NCBI GenBank assembly: GCA_030431775.1
Contig: JAUIHW010000006.1
Span: 62,001 to 126,000 of the forward strand
Reading direction: 5' to 3'
Length of the DNA stretch: 64,000 bases
Origin: Gammaproteobacteria bacterium
GTDB lineage: Bacteria > Pseudomonadota > Gammaproteobacteria > Pseudomonadales > JAUIET01
This document shows, piece after piece, positions 7,799 through 16,758 of this stretch. Position 1 is the stretch's first letter. Each line of letters begins with the position of its first letter. The notes below the pieces were generated by a model. It was not told the origin of the DNA and ran no database searches. It saw only the letters and a program-made list of their open reading frames with translations. Both the position numbers and the translations under genes were made by a program.

Positions 7799-8809
7799 CT
7801 AGCCGTAACCTTGTGGGTTCTGACTTTGCCAACGCCAGGTATCTCGCACCATATCATTGACATCACGTGTGGCCTCCCAACCGAGTTCCTTCTTGGCCTG
7901 GCTGGCGTCAGCGTAGCACATCGCGATATCACCAGGCCGTCGGTCGGCTATGCGGTATTTGATTGTTCGCCCGGTTTGCTCCTCAAATGCTTTCACCATG
8001 TCGAGCACTGAATAGCCATTTCCGGTGCCCAGGTTGTAAGTAACCACCCCGGGCTTCTGTTGCAACTTCTCCAATGCTCTGAGATGCCCAATGGACAAGT
8101 CGACTACATGAATGTAATCGCGCACTCCGGTGCCGTCTTTGGTGGGGTAGTCGTCTCCAAATACCGATAGACACTCCAGCTTACCAACCGCTACCTGACT
8201 GACGAACGGCATGAGGTTGTTCGGAATGTCCGATGGGTCTTCACCTATCTGACCACTATGGTGCGCGCCAACCGGATTAAAATAACGCAGCAATGCAATA
8301 TTCCAGCGTGAGTCGGAAACCTGCAGATCACGCAGTATCTCCTCAACAATCAGCTTGGAGCGGCCATACGGATTAGTCGCCGACAAGGGGAAGTCCTCCG
8401 TAATTGGCACGCTGGCGGGATCGCCATAGACGGTTGCGGATGAGCTGAACACCAAATCACACACCCCGTGTTTGCTCAGCACATCGCACAGAGTCAAGGT
8501 ACCCTGCACATTGTTCTGATAGTAAAGCAATGACTTCTCGACGGACTCACCGACGGCCTTCAAGCCGGCAAAATGAATCACAGCTTCCGGCTGATGTTTA
8601 CCAAGCACCTCGTCGAGGCCGTCATAGTCCCGAATATCAACTTGATAAAAAGGCAGCTGCTTTCCGGTAATCGCCTCAACTCGGCGAATCGCTTCCTCAC
8701 TGCTATTAGACAAATTATCAACAACAATCGCTTCATGGCCTGCAGTCAAAAGCTCAACACAGGTATGGCTGCCAATGTAGCCCGCGCCACCAGTCACTAA
8801 TACTCTCAT
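7799..8809 (-). CDS. galE: UDP-glucose 4-epimerase
   Basis: A 336-residue extended short-chain dehydrogenase that interconverts UDP-glucose and UDP-galactose using bound NAD. The Rossmann motif GGAGYIGS is at 7-14; the catalytic residues are Ser124, Tyr148 and Lys152 in YGRSK. Length and the C-terminal [16 protein letters not shown] segment are typical. It supplies UDP-galactose for envelope sugars. It is a single gene, divergent from trmA; the 71 bases between them hold a 12-bp palindrome. Confidence 0.95.
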
Positions 8810-8829
8810 CAGTATCTCATTCAGTCAGT

Positions 8830-8844
8830 ATCTATAGATATAAT
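8830..8844. promoter_or_regulatory. Palindrome and -10 box between galE and trmA
   Basis: TATCTATAGATA is a perfect 12-bp palindrome (8830-8841). A TATAAT (8839-8844) overlaps its right edge and could be the -10 of trmA. The -35 is poor. The octamer CAGTATCT occurs at 8810 and again at 8827. This may be a shared control site (inference). Confidence 0.35.
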
Positions 8845-8880
8845 AGCAGCCCTGATGACGTCGGTTAGAGCGAAGCCCCT

Positions 8881-9987
8881 TTGAGCCGTTATGAACAACA
8901 ATTAGCCGACAAGCACCAACGCTTGGCTAAGCTGCTGGCCCCTTTTAGTCCTCCCCCCATTCAGGTCTTCCGCTCTTCCCCGAGCGGCTTTCGCATGCGG
9001 GCAGAGTTTCGTATCTGGCACCAGGACGATGAGTTGAACTATGTCATGTTTGCACGGGGCAACTCTGGCAAACCCTACCCTATTCATGATTTTCCTTCTG
9101 GCTCAAGCTGCATACAGCGCTTGATGCCCCTGGTCAGAAATTATTTGATCAGCCGCCCAGCGCTGCGCCACAAACTCTTTCAAGTGGAGTTCTTGAGCAA
9201 CCTGGCAGGGGAATGCGTGGTTACGCTGCTCTATCACCGCCAACTCTCCGCTGAATGGCTTACAGAAGCAACAAGCATGGAACAGGCACTGGGTGTGAAT
9301 ATTATTGGCCGGGCGCGCAAACAGAAACTGACGGTCAGCCAGGATTACATCCACGAAACCTATCGGGTCGGAAACCGGCTGTTGCATTATCGGCAATACG
9401 AGAACAGTTTCAGCCAGCCCAACTCCAGCATTAATGAAAAAATGCTCAACTGGGTTTGCTCGCAAACACAAAAAGCCCAGGACGATTTGCTGGAATTGTA
9501 TTGCGGTAATGGGAACTTCAGTATTGCGCTCGCGCCCGATTTTGGCCAGGTGCTAGCAACTGAGCAGGACAAACTCGGCATTCGCGCTGCGAACTATAAT
9601 ATGCACCGGAATGACATCAATAACATGCAGGTGGCGCGCATGTCAGCAGCCGAAGTGGCTACCGCGCTTGCAAGAATACGACCGTTTCGCCGGCTTGCTC
9701 ACCTGGAACTCGACAACTACCAGTTCTCCACCGTACTGGTCGACCCCCCGAGAGCGGGGCTGGACACAGAAACCCTGCAATTTATCAGTCGCTTTGACAA
9801 TATCATCTATGTTTCGTGTAATCCGCAGACTCTACGTGACAACCTCATGAATTTAAGCGAGCACCGGATCCACGCTGCCGCCCTGTTCGACCAGTTTCCT
9901 TTCACCGAACATATTGAAACAGGGGTGCTGCTGGTGAAACCGAGCGGAAAAACAGCGGTTATAACTGCTCGCCAGGCGAGGCCTTAG
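8881..9987 (+). CDS. trmA: tRNA (uracil-5-)-methyltransferase TrmA
   Basis: A 368-residue SAM-dependent enzyme that makes ribothymidine at position 54 of tRNAs (and methylates tmRNA). The SAM-binding motif is LELYCGNGNFS (204-214); VDPPRAGLD follows. Cys313 in SCNPQTL is the catalytic nucleophile and Glu346 in HIETG the likely base. No in-frame ATG precedes residue 39, and an in-frame stop lies five codons upstream, so the TTG at 8881 must be the start (sequence MSRYEQQLADK fits the family). The 3' end overlaps the convergent next gene by four bases. Confidence 0.94.
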   Translation: MSRYEQQLADKHQRLAKLLAPFSPPPIQVFRSSPSGFRMRAEFRIWHQDDELNYVMFARGNSGKPYPIHDFPSGSSCIQRLMPLVRNYLISRPALRHKLFQVEFLSNLAGECVVTLLYHRQLSAEWLTEATSMEQALGVNIIGRARKQKLTVSQDYIHETYRVGNRLLHYRQYENSFSQPNSSINEKMLNWVCSQTQKAQDDLLELYCGNGNFSIALAPDFGQVLATEQDKLGIRAANYNMHRNDINNMQVARMSAAEVATALARIRPFRRLAHLELDNYQFSTVLVDPPRAGLDTETLQFISRFDNIIYVSCNPQTLRDNLMNLSEHRIHAAALFDQFPFTEHIETGVLLVKPSGKTAVITARQARP

Positions 9988-10874
9988 TACACATGTATAC
10001 CCAATTCCTCTAGTTTTTCAGTGAGCACATTGTCCAAATCACTGATATCGGCTTCCTGCAACTCGATCAGGGTGATTTCATGCTCTTCGCACCAGGCCTG
10101 TTTGGCCAGCCGGCGTGCCAGTACATCCGGGCGATCATCGCTGTGCCAGATATCAAGATAAACACCATAAGCCGGCAGGTAAAAATCACAGATAAACTCA
10201 TCATGACCGGACAACTCATGACGATAGGCATGGGTCAGGTTCAACAGATACAGCCATTGACAAACTTCAGCCTCCGCCGGCGTTTCAAGCCAGTGTCCAT
10301 CTATACTGCAAATACTGTTACCGGCCCCCGGGTGCGCTAATCGCGGCGCCGGGTCGAATAGGTCGGGCTCATGCTCTTGCGAATCAAGCTCACTGACGTT
10401 CAGCATGGTGAAGCGCGTAACCAGCTCCGGCTCGCCAAGCAGAGACCGGGGCCAGCTAGCATAATATTGTCCGTTTTCGGTCTGTAGCTGCTGGGCTCCC
10501 AGGTTGCGACCCGCCTCCGTCAGAAGCCAGCCCTGGCGGGTTCGACGTATCCACCCAAGCTCACGCAGAACCCGATTGCACAGCCTCGCCGGCCTGCCGA
10601 AGTGCTCGGCAATTGCGCTTGCCGTGATCTGGGTGGCGTCTGCCGCAGCCAGCAACAAAGGGTGCTCTGCTAGCTTGCTGGGCCAAACAATATAGCGGCC
10701 ATACGACTCACTGAAAGCATAGTCACCGCCCTGCTCTTCACCCTTCGGCAGTAGGCGCCACGCGCCCTCCTCACGATGAATCCATTCATAGTCCCGCAAC
10801 AGTGTGAACAGGCGCCGGGACGACATTTGCAGCTGCTTTGCCAATGCAGTTGTTGACAGCGCCCGTTCTGCCAT
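9984..10874 (-). CDS. Protein with two winged-helix repeats and a PD-(D/E)XK-like C-terminus
   Basis: A 296-residue protein. Residues about 1-75 and 80-148 look like two copies of the same unit: a helix-turn-helix, then Gly-x-Trp-x-Leu and a Gly-x-Tyr-x2-Trp-Pro-x2-Leu closing motif. Residues about 188-296 resemble a PD-(D/E)XK nuclease core: Glu201/203, Asp230 in CDFYLP, Asp241 in YLDIW where Glu is usual, and Lys258 in RRLAKQ. A DNA- or RNA-acting enzyme is a reasonable inference but no function is known to me. It starts seven bases after the MBL-fold gene and probably shares its transcript. Confidence 0.75.
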   Translation of the reverse strand: MAERALSTTALAKQLQMSSRRLFTLLRDYEWIHREEGAWRLLPKGEEQGGDYAFSESYGRYIVWPSKLAEHPLLLAAADATQITASAIAEHFGRPARLCNRVLRELGWIRRTRQGWLLTEAGRNLGAQQLQTENGQYYASWPRSLLGEPELVTRFTMLNVSELDSQEHEPDLFDPAPRLAHPGAGNSICSIDGHWLETPAEAEVCQWLYLLNLTHAYRHELSGHDEFICDFYLPAYGVYLDIWHSDDRPDVLARRLAKQAWCEEHEITLIELQEADISDLDNVLTEKLEELGIHVY

Positions 10875-10880
10875 GGGGTG

Positions 10881-11528
10881 CTACAAGGTCACAAAGGGGT
10901 TGGCATTCATCTCAGCACCGATGGTTGTGCTTGGACCATGGCCGGTGATCACAGTTGCGTCAGGATCCAGTGAATAGATACGCTCACGTATCGACTTTTC
11001 TATTTGTTTGAAATCACCGCCCGGCAAATCTGTGCGGCCAATGGATTGTTTGAACAGAGTGTCGCCTGCCACCAGCAACTTGTGCGGCGCAAACCAGAAG
11101 CTCATAGAGCCTTCCGTATGACCTGGGGTGTGCATGGCCACGCCATCGCAGCAACAGAGAGCTTCGTCATCGTGCAACCAAAAATCCGGATCGGGCAATG
11201 GCTGATAGGGAATACCAAACATCCTGCACTGCTCTTCCACCATATCCCACCACATCTTATCGCTCTTGTGCAAATGGATGCTTGCACCGGTGGCGGCTTT
11301 CAATTCACCAGCAGCGAGAATATGGTCCAGGTGGGCGTGGGTGTGGATGATATTCACCAGGCGCAGTCCCTGCTCGCTCAGCACAGTCAGTATGCGTTCT
11401 GCTTCACCGCCCGGGTCAATCACCATCGCTTTTTTGCTCACCGGATCACCGATAATGGCGCAATTGCACTGCAGAGGCCCTACCGGGAAAGATTCAAAAA
11501 AGAGGGCTGGCTGGCTGTTGTCGTTCAT
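10881..11528 (-). CDS. Metallo-beta-lactamase-fold hydrolase (glyoxalase-II-like, YcbL type)
   Basis: A 215-residue hydrolase with the zinc motif THAHLDH (63-69), a later His in HTPGHTEGS, Asp in AGDTLF and His in GHGPSTT. It lacks the C-terminal domain of classical GloB, so it belongs to the short glyoxalase-II-like/YcbL group, which hydrolyses thioesters such as S-lactoylglutathione. Its ATG overlaps the stop of the dUTPase gene (ATGA), which suggests translational coupling. Confidence 0.88.
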   Translation of the reverse strand: MNDNSQPALFFESFPVGPLQCNCAIIGDPVSKKAMVIDPGGEAERILTVLSEQGLRLVNIIHTHAHLDHILAAGELKAATGASIHLHKSDKMWWDMVEEQCRMFGIPYQPLPDPDFWLHDDEALCCCDGVAMHTPGHTEGSMSFWFAPHKLLVAGDTLFKQSIGRTDLPGGDFKQIEKSIRERIYSLDPDATVITGHGPSTTIGAEMNANPFVTL

Positions 11529-12205
11529 ACGATTTCACTACTAGCATGGTGGGCGTATCGCTGCTTCAAAGCAGCATAAAGTTCGGTTTCAAACTCGGTT
11601 GCGGGCACTTGGAGAGCATCGCTGATTTCCACAAGATGTTCATTATCTTCGCGTCCCTGCCAAATCTTCTGGTAACTGCCATCTTTGTATCCATGGTCTT
11701 GGCGAAAGAAATTCAGTACATTTTTGCCGACGTATGAGCGATACAACTGATCCGCGCTCATACCCGCCGCTAGCAGTAATTGCCAGAAATGTGCCACAGA
11801 AAAAAACCGGGTACTCAGCGTCTGGGCAACCAGCGCTTCGGTGGCTTCTAAAATTCCGAGCTCTACAAGGCTCGCCTGCTCCAAAGCCTGATCCATTTCT
11901 GTTGCGATATCAGCCATGGGGCGGCCATCAATCAGCATGCTCAGGCCAAAATGCCAGATATCGACAATCTCCAAATGGACCTGCTCCATATCCGGCTCCT
12001 GGTGCTTCCACCATTTATAGCCGTAATGCTCCATCAATTCCCCACATTCAATCCATAAGGCTCGGTAGTAGGCAAAGCCCTGATTGAACCAGTCCGGGTG
12101 AACCTTGCTGTTCATCCGGTGCTGGAGTTCTAGCATATGTGCGAACTGCTGAATTCTCTGCTCCAAACCCTGCTCCTTTGGCGATATATCCGGCACGATA
12201 GCCAT
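11525..12205 (-). CDS. dUTP diphosphatase, dimeric all-alpha type
   Basis: A 226-residue protein of the all-alpha NTP pyrophosphatase superfamily. The metal-binding motifs are Glu53 and Glu56 in WIECGELMEH and Glu79/Asp82 in EIVDIWHF. The Tyr-Gly-Tyr-Lys-Trp-Trp-Lys segment is characteristic of dimeric dUTPases, which hydrolyse dUTP to dUMP and keep uracil out of DNA. It is unrelated to the trimeric Dut fold. It heads a three-gene minus-strand operon with the MBL and winged-helix genes. Upstream DNA is shared with the divergent 28-residue peptide gene. Confidence 0.87.
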   Translation of the reverse strand: MAIVPDISPKEQGLEQRIQQFAHMLELQHRMNSKVHPDWFNQGFAYYRALWIECGELMEHYGYKWWKHQEPDMEQVHLEIVDIWHFGLSMLIDGRPMADIATEMDQALEQASLVELGILEATEALVAQTLSTRFFSVAHFWQLLLAAGMSADQLYRSYVGKNVLNFFRQDHGYKDGSYQKIWQGREDNEHLVEISDALQVPATEFETELYAALKQRYAHHASSEIV

Positions 12206-12300
12206 TTACCACGCTGCAATCAAGCCCATCTCGCCCCCGCATTGTGAGACATGTCTGACAAGGAATAGGCGCAAAATCTAAAACACGCGGTCTTGCTAAC

Positions 12301-12309
12301 TGTTACACT
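12301..12309 (+). promoter_or_regulatory. Possible extended -10 promoter of the 28-residue peptide
   Basis: TGTTACACT has the TGn-TAnnnT form of an extended -10. No good -35 is present. It lies about 40 bases before the peptide start. Confidence 0.35.
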
Positions 12310-12349
12310 TAGTGCTTACCTAACAAGCTTTCGAAGTAAGGACAGAAAA

Positions 12350-12436
12350 TTGCAGAATAAAGACTGGATTCTGATTGTCGTGGTGTTTCCAGCACTTTTG
12401 GCAATGGCTACCTATGTGGTCAACAAGTTATTGTAG
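12350..12436 (+). CDS. 28-residue single-span membrane peptide
   Basis: A TTG start at 12350 is preceded by AAGGA with seven bases between. The peptide begins Met-Gln-Asn-Lys-Asp-Trp, then has about 18 hydrophobic residues (ILIVVVFPALLAMATYVV) and ends Asn-Lys-Leu-Leu. The polar start, single helix and short tail match known bacterial small membrane proteins. Nothing in the sequence tells its partner. It ends 14 bases before the tRNA-His gene, which is on the other strand. Confidence 0.55.
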   Translation: MQNKDWILIVVVFPALLAMATYVVNKLL

Positions 12437-12450
12437 CTTGTAAAAGGGGG

Positions 12451-12527
12451 TGGGGTGGCGTATGGGGCTCGAACCCACGACCGCCGGAATCACAATCCGG
12501 AGCTCTACCAACTGAGCTAACGCCACC
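12451..12527 (-). tRNA. tRNA-His(GTG)
   Basis: The minus strand reads GGTGGCG...CGCCACCCCA, with anticodon GTG in a CCGGA/TCCGG stem, T-loop GTTCGAGCC and an encoded CCA. The extra 5' G (the -1 base of tRNA-His) is encoded at 12527. It is the last tRNA of the operon. Confidence 0.95.
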
Positions 12528-12584
12528 ATTGATCCTGCTTCGCTACCGCCATCCTGGCGCGACTTCAGTTCATTTTACAACACC
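12508..12584 (-). repeat. 77-bp direct repeat, copy 1
   Basis: Identical to 12651-12727. This copy holds the first 20 bases of the intact tRNA-His gene and 57 bases of its upstream spacer, with one AGGAT-loop hairpin (12547-12559). Confidence 0.9.
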
Positions 12585-12744
12585 GGCCGCGACGTCCTGT
12601 CGCGTCGTTCGCCTAGCTGCGAATGTCCTCGACATTCGGTCAAGGCTCACCCAACTGAGCTAACGCCACCATTGATCCTGCTTCGCTACCGCCATCCTGG
12701 CGCGACTTCAGTTCATTTTACAACACCAGCTGCGGCTTCCTGCC
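12547..12744 (-). other. Series of hairpins with AGGA loops in the tRNA spacer
   Basis: Read on the transcribed minus strand, the spacer forms CGCC-AGGAT-GGCG at 12547-12559 and again at 12690-12702, CGCGAC-AGGAC-GTCGCG at 12588-12604, CGAATGTC-GAG-GACATTCG at 12620-12638 and GGC-AGGAA-GCC at 12734-12744. Four loops expose AGGA; in the GAG-loop hairpin the GGA straddles loop and stem. They may be processing signals of the tRNA precursor or sites for a GGA-binding protein such as CsrA/RsmA (inference). Confidence 0.5.
12651..12727 (-). repeat. 77-bp direct repeat, copy 2, with a tRNA-His 5' fragment
   Basis: An exact copy of 12508-12584, 143 bases away. The 20 bases at 12651-12670 equal the 5' end of tRNA-His but the rest of the tRNA is absent, so this is a tRNA remnant that would be transcribed between tRNA-Arg and the intact tRNA-His. 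Confidence 0.88.
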
Positions 12745-12776
12745 AAGGCACTCTCTTGCTGAGCGCTTCGGCATAC

Positions 12777-12853
12777 TGGCGCGCCCGGCAGGACTCGAAC
12801 CTGCAACCCTCGGCTTAGAAGGCCGATGCTCTATCCAGTTGAGCTACGGGCGC
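12777..12853 (-). tRNA. tRNA-Arg(TCT)
   Basis: A 77-nt tRNA on the minus strand. GCGCCCG pairs with CGGGCGC in the acceptor, and the anticodon TCT lies between TCGGC and GCCGA arms. The T-loop reads GTTCGAGTC and the CCA is encoded. It is the second tRNA of the operon. Confidence 0.94.
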
Positions 12854-12911
12854 CAGGAACAAGCCCGACAGTCAGCCCGCGGACCGAAGGTCCTCAGGCA
12901 CTGCCCAAATT

Positions 12912-12988
12912 TGGTCGGGGTAGAGAGATTCGAACTCCCGACATCCTGCTCCCAAAGCAGGCGCGCTACCAGACTGCGCTATACCCCG
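12912..12988 (-). tRNA. tRNA-Pro(TGG)
   Basis: A 77-nt tRNA on the minus strand beginning CGGGGTA, with anticodon TGG between CCTGC and GCAGG arms, T-loop GTTCGAATC and an encoded CCA. It is the first tRNA after the operon promoter. Confidence 0.95.
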
Positions 12989-13024
12989 AATCGATTATCA
13001 AGCACTCTCTGACGAGAGGACGGC

Positions 13025-13053
13025 ATCATACTCACGCTCCCATGCCTCGTCAA
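13025..13053 (-). promoter_or_regulatory. Promoter of the tRNA-Pro/Arg/His operon
   Basis: On the minus strand TTGACG (13053-13048), 17 bases, TATGAT (13030-13025), then a GC-rich discriminator (GCCGTCCTCTCG). This is a strong stable-RNA-type promoter placed about 35 bases before tRNA-Pro and just after the cysS stop. Confidence 0.8.
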
Positions 13054-13066
13054 TGCCATCAATACC

Positions 13067-14482
13067 CTACTTTCTGCGCCAGCGCGTGCCCTCGCGACTG
13101 TCTTCCAACACAATACCATTCTCCGACAGCTGCTCGCGTATCCGGTCCGCCTCGGGGTAGTCCCCGGAATTCTTGGCCGCGGTGCGTGCCGCTACCAGAA
13201 CTTCGATTTCCTCGGCACCCAGGCCGCTGCCAGCACTGTGCTTGCTCTGCAGGGCCTCTGTAGGGTTGCGTTGCAATATGCCAAGCCAGCCGCCCAGCTC
13301 ATACAGGACACTGCCCAAAATGCTGGCAAGTACGCTTTCCCCGGCCGCTTTCGCCGTATTCAGACGGCGAGCGAGATCAAACATCACTGCCAGCGCCTCC
13401 GGCGTATTAAAATCATCATTCATCGCGGCGCTGAAGCGCTCCTTGGCCTCAGCGGCATCGGTGTTGGACCCAGACTGGTCGCCACCTGCCACTTCGACTC
13501 CCTGTAACGCAAGATACAGGCGCTCTAGAGCGTGCCTGGCGTTATCCAGGGCTTCATCAGAATAGTTGATCGGGCTGCGATAGTGACTGGCCAACAGCAG
13601 ATAACGCACCACTTCCGCCTCATAAACCTGCAGAACGTCACGGATGGTGAAAAAGTTGCCCAGGGACTTAGACATCTTTTCATCATCCACACGGACGGCA
13701 TTATTATGCAGCCAGTACTTCGCATAGTGCTGATGGGAAGCGGCTTCACTTTGGGCGATCTCGTTTTCATGGTGTGGAAAAACCAAATCCTGCCCGCCAC
13801 CATGAATATCGAAACTCTTTCCGAGATTACAGGTAGACATTACCGAACACTCAATGTGCCAACCGGGTCGGCCGCGTCCCCAAGGCGCTTCAAACTGGGC
13901 ATCATCGGGCTCGTCTTCTCTGGCGCCCTTCCATAGCGCGAAATCTCGCGGGTCTTTTTTCAGTTCACCAACCGCTACTCTGGCGCCCTCCAGCAGTTCG
14001 TCAGGTCGTTTACCCGAAAGCTTGCCATAACCGGGAAAGCTGTCCACCGCGAAGTACACATCACCATTCTCCACAGAATAAGCAGCCCCATTATCAATAA
14101 GCTGTTGGATCAGGTTTTTCATCTGCTCCACATAGTCTGTTGCCCTTGGCTCAATATCAGGAGGCTGAATGCCCAGTGCCCGTTCGTCTTCATGCATACA
14201 GGCTATGAACTTTTCGGTAAGTTCGCTGTAGGGTATGCCCTTTTCCTGGGCCCGCGCGAGAATCTTGTCATCAATGTCAGTAATGTTGCGAACGTAGGTC
14301 AACTGGTAATCACAAGCTCTGAGCCAACGGGCGATAACATCAAATGCAACCAGCATGCGGGCATGACCGATATGGCAGTAATCGTAAACGGTAATGCCAC
14401 ACACATACATCCGAACCTGGCGATCAACCAGAGGCTCAAAAGCCTCTTTTTGTCGGCTCAGCGTGTTATAGACCTGTAACAT
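13067..14482 (-). CDS. cysS: Cysteinyl-tRNA synthetase
   Basis: A 471-residue class I synthetase that charges tRNA-Cys. It has the HIGH motif (37-40), the KMSKS motif in [12 protein letters not shown], and zinc ligands Cys28, Cys in WHIECSVMS and His/Glu in FPHHENE. The ATG at 14482 overlaps the glnS stop (TAATG) behind a strong GGAGGAAAG site; a longer reading upstream would add 11 unrelated residues. It is the distal gene of glnS-cysS, with the tRNA operon promoter just after it. Confidence 0.96.
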
Positions 14483-16170
14483 TACTTTCCTCCACCCTTC
14501 TGCACCTTGGCCCAACCGTCTCGCAAACTGACCACTCTATTGAACACCAGATGCTCTGCGCTTGAATCATAACGGTCAATACAGAAGTAGCCTTCACGCT
14601 CAAACTGAAATTTACTCTCCGCAGCGGCGTGTTGCAGGCTTTGCTCGGCCCTCGCCTGTGCCCTTATCGTTAAACTGTCAGGGTTCAAGTGTTCGGTGAA
14701 GTCAACTCCCTTGTCGGCATCCGGACTTTCCACCTTGAACAAGCGGTCGTACAAGCGCACTTCGGCCGGCACGCTGTGGGTCGCGGACACCCAGTGAATG
14801 ACGCCTTTTGCTTTGTAACCTTCAGGGTTCTTACCCAATGTATCCGGGTCATACCGACAGTAAATCGTGTCAATGTTTCCGGCGGAATCTTTTTCAAAAC
14901 GCTCCAGAGTAATTACGTAGGCGCCGCGCAAGCGAACCGGGTGCTCAGGCGCCAGGCGTTTCCACTTGGGCGGCGCAAGCTCAGCGAAATCAGCCCGATC
15001 GATATAAATCTCTCGAGTTAATGGCACATCCCGGTGACCCAACGACTCGTCCTTCGGATGATTCGGCAGACTGAGTATTTCTGGCTCCTCTTGCGAAAAA
15101 TTACTCAATACCAGCCGTACCGGATCCAATACGCACATAGCCCTGGGTGCATTGCGATCCAGGTCCTCTCTTACGGCGTGCTCCAACATACCCACGTCAA
15201 CAACGCTACCCGCTTTTGAAATGCCTACAGATTCACAAAACTGGCGAATTGACGCCGGCGTATAGCCTCTGCGGCGCATTGCTGCCAACGTAGGCAGCCG
15301 AGGATCGTCCCAGCCTGTGACGGTACCGGCATCCACTAGTTGTTTCAGTTTGCGTTTGCTGGTGATCGTATAGTTAAGGTTGAGACGCGCAAATTCGATT
15401 TGCTGGGGTGTCCCCGGTGCCGACACATTATCAATCAGCCAGTTGTAGAGCGGCCGATGGTCTTCAAACTCCAGCGTACACAGGCTGTGGGTTACCCCCT
15501 CAATGGCATCCGACAAACCATGTGTGAAATCATACATCGGATAAATACACCACTGGTCGCCTGTTTGATGATGCTCAGCATAGCGAATTCGATAGAGTAT
15601 CGGATCTCGCATATTCATGTTTGGTGAAGCCATGTCAATTTTGGCACGCAGTACATGCTCACCTTCGGCAAATTCACCAGCGCGCATCCGCTCAAACAGC
15701 TCGCGATTTTCGCTGATCTCCCGTTCCCGAAAAGGACTGTTGGTGCCTGGCTCGGTTAAAGTGCCCCGGTATTCTCTGGATTGCTCCGGACTAAGGCTAC
15801 ACACGTATGCCAGTCCTTTATCGATCAACTGCAGCGCGAAGTCATACAGATGGTCGAAATAATCCGACGCAAAATGCACCGGCTCCTGCCACTGAAAGCC
15901 CAACCATTGAATATCCGCCTTAATGGAATCAACATAACTCTGCTCCTCTTTTTCAGGATTGGTGTCGTCGAAACGAAGATTGCAGTGGGCCGGCACCTGG
16001 CTGGCATATTCCTCCGCCAAACCGAAATTGAGGCAAATCGATTTCGCATGACCAATGTGAAGATAGCCATTCGGCTCAGGAGGGAAGCGTGTAACCACGC
16101 ATTGCCGGGCACCTGAGGCCAGGTCTTTGTCAATTGCGGTTTTAATAAAATGGCCGGATTTCGTGCTCAT
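14482..16170 (-). CDS. glnS: Glutaminyl-tRNA synthetase
   Basis: A 562-residue class I synthetase, close to the 554 of E. coli GlnRS. HIGH is at 38-41 within [14 protein letters not shown]; the KMSKS-like loop reads TITSKRKL. The C-terminal part has the anticodon-binding beta-barrels. The ATG at 16170 gives the usual family N-terminus ([13 protein letters not shown]); an open frame further upstream runs antisense through ppiB and is not used. The gene is divergent from ppiB and couples to cysS through a one-base stop/start overlap. Confidence 0.96.
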
Positions 16171-16215
16171 AGCTTTTCCAAAGACGAACGGGTGGTTTCC
16201 ATCATCCAAACCGCC

Positions 16216-16222
16216 TATTATA
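16216..16222. promoter_or_regulatory. Shared -10 element for glnS and ppiB
   Basis: The same seven bases give TATTAT on the plus strand (16216-16221) and TATAAT on the minus strand (16222-16217). Each would start transcription 36-40 bases before ppiB or glnS. The -35 boxes are weak on both sides. Confidence 0.45.
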
Positions 16223-16263
16223 GCGCGCTGTTTACGATGAAACGAGCTGACAGGATTGACTAT

Positions 16264-16758
16264 ATGTTTACACTGCAAACCAATTACGGCGACATTGAAA
16301 TTGAACTGGATTACGAGAACGCACCAATCAGCGCAGAGAACTTTGCACGTTACGCCAAATCCGGTTTCTACGATGGCACCGTTTTTCATCGCGTCATCGA
16401 TGGGTTCATGATCCAGGGCGGCGGCTTCGATGAGAGTATGCAGCAGAAGGAAACTGCCGAACCCATTGAGAACGAGGCCAAAAATGGCCTGACCAACGAC
16501 GCTGGCACTCTGGCCATGGCCAGGACAATGGACCCCCACTCTGCATCGTCACAGTTTTTCATCAACGTGGCCGACAATGGCTTTTTAAACCACACTTCCG
16601 AAAGCCCTCAGGGCTGGGGTTATGCGGTGTTTGGCAGAGTGATTAACGGCATGGACGTCGTGAATAAGATCAAAGGTGTTCCTACTGGCAGTCGCATGGG
16701 CCATCAGGATGTGCCGGTAGAGAATGTCATTATCAACCAGGTAGTCAGCAAGGACTGA
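16264..16758 (+). CDS. ppiB: Peptidyl-prolyl cis-trans isomerase, cyclophilin type (PpiB)
   Basis: A 164-residue cytoplasmic cyclophilin that speeds proline isomerisation. The active-site motif [14 protein letters not shown] (about 40-53) and [13 protein letters not shown] carry the catalytic Arg, Phe and Gln. There is no signal peptide. The ATG at 16264 gives the usual start ([15 protein letters not shown]); in-frame codons upstream overlap the promoter region and glnS. It is followed by lpxH after 20 bases, the order found in Pseudomonas. Confidence 0.94.

Follow-up and report, generated by a model that had tools for sequence, protein, structure and literature searches.

The repeat found between two tRNA genes of the window (the whole stretch of DNA analysed, 64 kb) belongs, with a probability that we put at about 60%, to a 5'-end type of tRNA-linked repeat and forms a probable CsrA-binding leader of a pre-tRNA. 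We infer from sequence that a structured element was inserted here, that it would be released as RNA and bind CsrA, and that a physiological effect may follow. The tRNA operon lies on the minus strand, as do its promoter-like site and the spacer features described next, in the order tRNA-Pro(TGG) (12912-12988), tRNA-Arg(TCT) (12777-12853) and intact tRNA-His(GTG) (12451-12526), all identified by ARAGORN and Infernal. A putative sigma70-like promoter, TTGACG-17-TATGAT (13025-13053, 10/12 matches in a consensus scan), lies upstream of tRNA-Pro and is the sole consensus match in the region. The Arg-His spacer consists of two copies of a ~124-nt element, E1 and E2, with a duplicated tRNA-His 5' fragment between them (12651-12669), which comprises nucleotides 1-19 and ends with the D-loop GG. 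E1 (12670-12776; 67.5 bits with model R1) is an older, decayed copy with an eroded P1, and carries the hairpins TGGCAGGAAGCCG (12733-12745) and CGCCAGGATGGCG (12690-12702). E2 (12527-12650) is intact, starts with GTGAG and is the only match to model R3 within the window (78.6 bits, E 4e-17); its hairpins are P1 (12620-12639), P2 CGCGACAGGACGTCGCG (12588-12604) and P3 CGCCAGGATGGCG (12547-12559).

Sequence comparison confirmed the exact 77-bp identity of 12508-12584 and 12651-12727 noted in the sequence-only reading. Both copies are present in the assembled contig and no further copies were found elsewhere in the window genome. The downstream copy comprises the 3' part of E2 and tRNA-His nucleotides 1-19, the upstream copy the 3' part of E1 and the His fragment, and a wider similarity covers 98 nt at 94% (12502-12599 and 12645-12742, spacing 143). 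The description of a tRNA-His 5' fragment without the rest of the tRNA also holds, except for its size: the fragment has nucleotides 1-19 with 58 identical nucleotides upstream, where 20 bases and 57 had been given. The 66 nt separating the copies (12585-12650) are not random sequence but the core of the structured element. The origin suggested at that stage (a recent, local and partial tandem duplication that took in the His leader and the tRNA 5' end, lost its 3' part and involved no special element) fits the 77-bp exactness in so far as the last homogenising event, either duplication or gene conversion between E1 and E2, is recent. As the source of the whole arrangement it is very improbable: the same separating element is conserved in many genera, and the break point after D-loop G18G19, the element and the intact downstream tRNA recur together at many tRNAs. 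This recurrence contradicts tandem duplication, which survives only for the latest homogenisation step. The fragment is unlikely to compete for RNase P, another early suggestion, since it has no acceptor or T-arm partners, which RNase P substrates require, and goes unrecognised as a tRNA: there is no ARAGORN or RF00005 match at 12640-12670, and by these models it is neither a functional nor a pseudo tRNA. That the fragment within the Arg-His spacer could be part of a small RNA stands as a possibility; the CsrA-type hairpins of the element, missed in the sequence-only reading, are a stronger argument for such an RNA than the fragment itself.

Many gammaproteobacterial genera share the layout seen in the window, at Lys, Arg, Gly, Thr, Val, Asn, Phe, Ser and Met tRNAs: nucleotides 1-19 of the local tRNA, then GG-GTGAG..GACCGA-hairpin-CGCAG..GAACG-hairpin..hairpin (the break falls between GG and GTGAG), then the intact tRNA. 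A scan of 84,980 species genomes with the pattern GCTCAGYTGGGTGN{3,14}GACCGA gave 83 matches, about 20 of which have the full layout, at tRNAs Lys TTT (including several Pseudoalteromonas species), Arg CCG, Gly GCC, Thr CGT and Val GAC; the full His layout is also present in another Pro-Arg-His operon. Pseudoalteromonas flavipulchra is one isolate with the layout, in an array at tRNA-Lys (L181). Model R2 matched 59 of 369 gammaproteobacterial genomes and 52 of 272 genera, with a mild bias from the two flanking bases that it contains from tRNA-linked seeds; R1, built without flanking bases, also recovered the tRNA-linked copies of G124. A deeper search of 38 genomes found between 1 and 17 copies in each. 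The genome G456 has about 17 near-identical copies outside tRNA genes, mostly after GAGCCCCCAGGG and some at contig ends (L258-L269, L318, L364-L366), which appear to be an expansion independent of tRNAs. At another locus (L278, G408 C1:1015300-1017500) seven matching element units of ~145 bp form a tandem array near tRNA-Met(CAT), and two more copies lie there on the opposite strand.

The core captured in models R2 and R3 consists of GG-GTGAG, stem A, a GACC/GCAG internal loop, the stem B hairpin, GAACG, hairpin P2 and CCGG, with hairpin P3 lying beyond it, 3' of CCGG. A structure-fitted alignment of 95 distinct copies has a covariation score of 0.605, compared with 0.134 for shuffles (0/500) and at most 0.093 for slid controls; an earlier sequence-only alignment of 17 copies gave 0.422 vs 0.102. 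Since single-sequence folding of the spacer reaches a z of only -1.2, the structural claim is based on covariation and not on folding energy. Rfam scans at permissive E-values found no family that fits the element, and sub-threshold matches to YrlA, Plastid-ycf2, Thr_leader and tmRNA_permuted were read as chance or tRNA overlap. Neither an exact 45-mer scan of a genome contig collection nor searches of plasmid and phage collections matched the window element. Four pattern matches in viral contigs were set aside, all of them without the element core and without a nearby tRNA.

The sole same-genus genome compared, G001, has an Arg-His spacer of 68 nt with neither the tRNA-His fragment nor the element. 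The sequence that separates the repeat copies of the window is found in G001 before tRNA-Lys, with 84% identity over 118 nt, and this locus shows a tRNA-Lys 5' fragment (GGGCCGTTAGCTCAGTTGG followed by GTGAGG..), then the element, then intact tRNA-Lys, while tRNA-Lys of the window genome is without the element. Thus a related genome lacks the repeat at His, yet has the element at another tRNA. As the element stands at Lys in one genome and at His in the other, the relevant unit is the element plus the 5' end of the tRNA that follows it. In the window genome (C35, L062) a degenerate tRNA-Lys 3'-end piece (GTCCACCACGGCCCATCA), possibly the remnant of a former tandem tRNA-Lys, lies ~60 nt upstream of intact tRNA-Lys(TTT). 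A serine-recombinase-like gene lies next to the element-bearing tRNA-Lys of G001 (C20, ~8747-16400, L036), and after it comes an ORF for a VirD4-like coupling protein; the region looks like an integrative conjugative element.

How did the element come to lie within a tRNA gene? In about 100 regions drawn from element-bearing genomes regardless of context, about half of the copies lie inside a tRNA or 5S gene by manual count. These genes make up an estimated ~0.1% of such genomes. At the tRNA and 5S copies a direct repeat extends from the break as far as the gene end, and an intact gene lies downstream; the 5S cases were confirmed. Sense copies nearly always have the break after nucleotides 18-19 (the D-loop GG) and sometimes at nucleotides 29-51; in the antisense orientation it follows nucleotides 59-61 in the T arm. 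Repeat length tracks the break point, from 16 to 53 nt, and the repeat usually stops 0-7 nt from the tRNA end, with longer repeats in tandem units (77 in the window, 87 in L160). Mirror-image copies are found at the 3' ends of tRNA and 5S rRNA genes; antisense elements at 5S rRNA 3' ends in L285, L324 and L326 recall E. coli rrA/rrB/rrF, in the opposite orientation. Some non-tRNA copies lie at the 3' ends of genes that we take to be thiS, nqrF and xerC from their C-termini, and no clear terminal duplication was seen at copies outside tRNA and 5S genes.

A long target duplication followed by decay was considered and rejected: decay alone would not lead one to expect that several repeats are 19/19 identical and stop precisely where the tRNA ends. 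A further alternative is the scar of a tRNA-targeting integrative element: a larger element would have been lost, and its att sites would persist as the 5' fragment and the intact tRNA. Integration into a tRNA gene usually gives an intact tRNA with a terminal identity block next to it, as at phage and ICE attachment sites, and the fragment with the intact tRNA matches this; a recombinase gene also adjoins the element-bearing tRNA-Lys of G001. Such a scar is, however, quite improbable here: the element is of near-constant length (about 100-130 nt) and conserved structure, and the identity block changes with the local tRNA. Unlike att sites, the blocks are mostly from the 5' end, the break is in the D-loop, many tRNA species are used, and the insert is a conserved structured element of ~120 nt without genes. 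No mobilising enzyme was found, and Y1/RAYT transposases have no positional link to the elements. The best account of the origin appears to be insertion with terminal duplication. A small mobile or recombining element most probably entered the D-loop of tRNA-His after G18G19, and would have duplicated the terminal tRNA segment, so that a functional tRNA-His was kept. In this arrangement E1 would be the older, decayed copy preceding the fragment, and E2 the one that directly follows its G18G19.

The Arg-His spacer is also the densest CAGGA cluster of the 64 kb on either strand, with 6 sites in 250 nt where 0.29 are expected. Four of these sites are in perfect hairpins with CAGGANG loops, of the kind found in CsrB, and two further CAGGA sites complete the cluster. 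Across the family, 90 of 103 copies have GGA in the P2 loop, which mostly takes the form C(ANGGAN)G or C(AGGAN)G and varies freely at the N positions. Hairpins of exactly these two forms occur in 67/91 regions for P2 and in 62/91 for P3, against 0.34 and 0.48 expected from mononucleotide shuffling, and the two forms match the known consensus motif of CsrA/RsmA. The motif is retained in 40/42 copies on the tRNA strand vs 7/19 on the opposite strand (Fisher p = 2e-6, an optimistic value as the copies are phylogenetically related), and the direction of this difference is what RNA-level selection would predict. From these loops, CsrA binding of the spacer RNA is likely, and a measurable physiological effect is less certain than the binding. 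Transcription through the operon would give a Pro-Arg-E1-fragment-E2-His precursor, in which the pre-tRNA-His leader carries four CsrA-type hairpins. RNase P cleavage at His +1 together with Arg 3' maturation would then free an RNA of ~250 nt, which may bind CsrA/RsmA; as a sponge it would titrate the protein in step with transcription of the tRNA operon, or else it would regulate its own precursor.

The main competing explanation is that the repeat is selfish DNA only, a non-autonomous mobile element moving via folded single-stranded DNA, where the tRNA and 5S copies are survivors in which an intact gene chanced to remain and the GGA loops serve recognition by an enzyme and not by CsrA. The concentration of context-blind copies in tRNA/5S genes with an intact gene downstream is in line with this, and so are the mismatches in stem P1, where G-U (11) and A-C (14) are equally rare in comparison with 141 and 5 in tRNA acceptor and T stems (p = 3e-10), the sign of a strand-symmetric constraint on DNA. 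P1 may thus be DNA-constrained, for example as a folded mobility substrate, and part of the structure may be under selection as DNA instead of RNA. However, selfish DNA does not predict the loss of GGA loops on the strand opposite to the tRNA, nor loop variation exactly at the N positions of ANGGAN, and stem P2 (G-U 6, A-C 1) looks RNA-like, on numbers too small to decide. As the complete explanation it is, in our view, rather unlikely, though well ahead of integration scars or tandem duplication.

CsrA binding as the preferred reading invites comparison with the CsrB/CsrC/RsmY/RsmZ sponges, short RNAs that likewise carry a number of hairpins with GGA in the loop. Multiple C-G-closed ANGGAN/AGGAN hairpin loops characterise CsrA/RsmA RNAs, and the spacer has four. 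Unlike the sponges, the element is embedded in a pre-tRNA leader and its own promoter or terminator was not seen; none of their Rfam models matched at family thresholds, the only hit being CsrC at 14.7 bits vs a gathering score of 61. The Csr sRNAs Pf1-Pf3 of Pseudoalteromonas were rejected as a match, tRNA being absent from the main text of their source. With REP/REPIN sequences the family shares short interspersed palindromic repeats, sometimes in tandem, and a possible folded DNA intermediate, but differs in targeting tRNA/5S genes with terminal duplication. REP/RAYT was also rejected as the mobiliser, given the lack of positional link to Y1 transposases and the 5 of 25 element-bearing genomes without any, several of the genomes compared being incomplete assemblies.

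The closest known system is that of the E. coli tRNA-linked repeats (TLRs), which include the rtT repeats of tyrT/tyrV as well as rrA/rrB/rrF (Egan and Landy 1978; Rudd 1999; PMC8144298). TLRs are described in E. coli and other Enterobacterales; E. coli has 22 copies, spread over ten loci of its tRNA and rRNA operons with one to five per locus, and in each of them 18-19 bp exactly match the 3' end of the immediately preceding gene. In vitro, Hfq and CsrA are bound by rrA, rrB and rrF, and the other 19, in tRNA operons, have a CsrA-binder score below 0.01 (PMC8144298). The window element resembles them in its place in a tRNA operon, in family copies at tRNA and 5S genes and in copying 19 nt of the local tRNA end, though from the 5' instead of the 3' end. 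It precedes tRNA-His and copies a 5' end, whereas in E. coli each TLR lies downstream of its gene and repeats the 3' end, and so we regard it as a TLR variant and not a plain member. CsrA-type loops, in contrast to the 19 TLRs of tRNA operons, are the rule in the present family. The tyrT TLR shares the motif order GG-GTGAG .. GAACG-hairpin-GCCCG, and the two TLRs tested are the best R3 matches in 5 kb of E. coli DNA, though weak (8.9 and 8.5 bits, E about 0.3). The element hence works like a TLR and comes close to that kind in layout; homology is weak by the model and, in the strict sense, putative. Relative to the TLR description that we found, what is new is that the copy is of the 5' end, that the element lies upstream and that CsrA loops occur regularly. 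Literature searches, which cover few subscription papers so that an earlier description may exist, returned none of a 5'-end element.

For TLRs, known since 1978, no origin is generally accepted and hardly any function has been assigned. A 5'-end type that is widespread in gammaproteobacteria, has fixed insertion points and keeps CsrA-type loops mainly on the transcribed strand makes both testable, the origin as insertion with terminal duplication and the function as CsrA titration from stable-RNA operons. It would tie growth-rate-controlled tRNA transcription to the global post-transcriptional regulator CsrA. We tentatively suggest, as a broader interpretation less secure than the assignment of the window repeat itself, an unrecognised class-wide, insertion-like family that targets tRNA/5S genes at fixed points (sense, D-loop G18G19; antisense, T-arm nucleotide 61), preserves each gene by duplicating its terminal segment, and keeps CsrA-binding hairpins where it is co-transcribed with the tRNA, thereby coupling stable-RNA transcription to CsrA activity, with E. 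coli TLRs as a derived branch. Downstream of the tRNA operon, the window also contains a palindrome, TTGTGAGACATGTCTGACAA, at 12242-12261.
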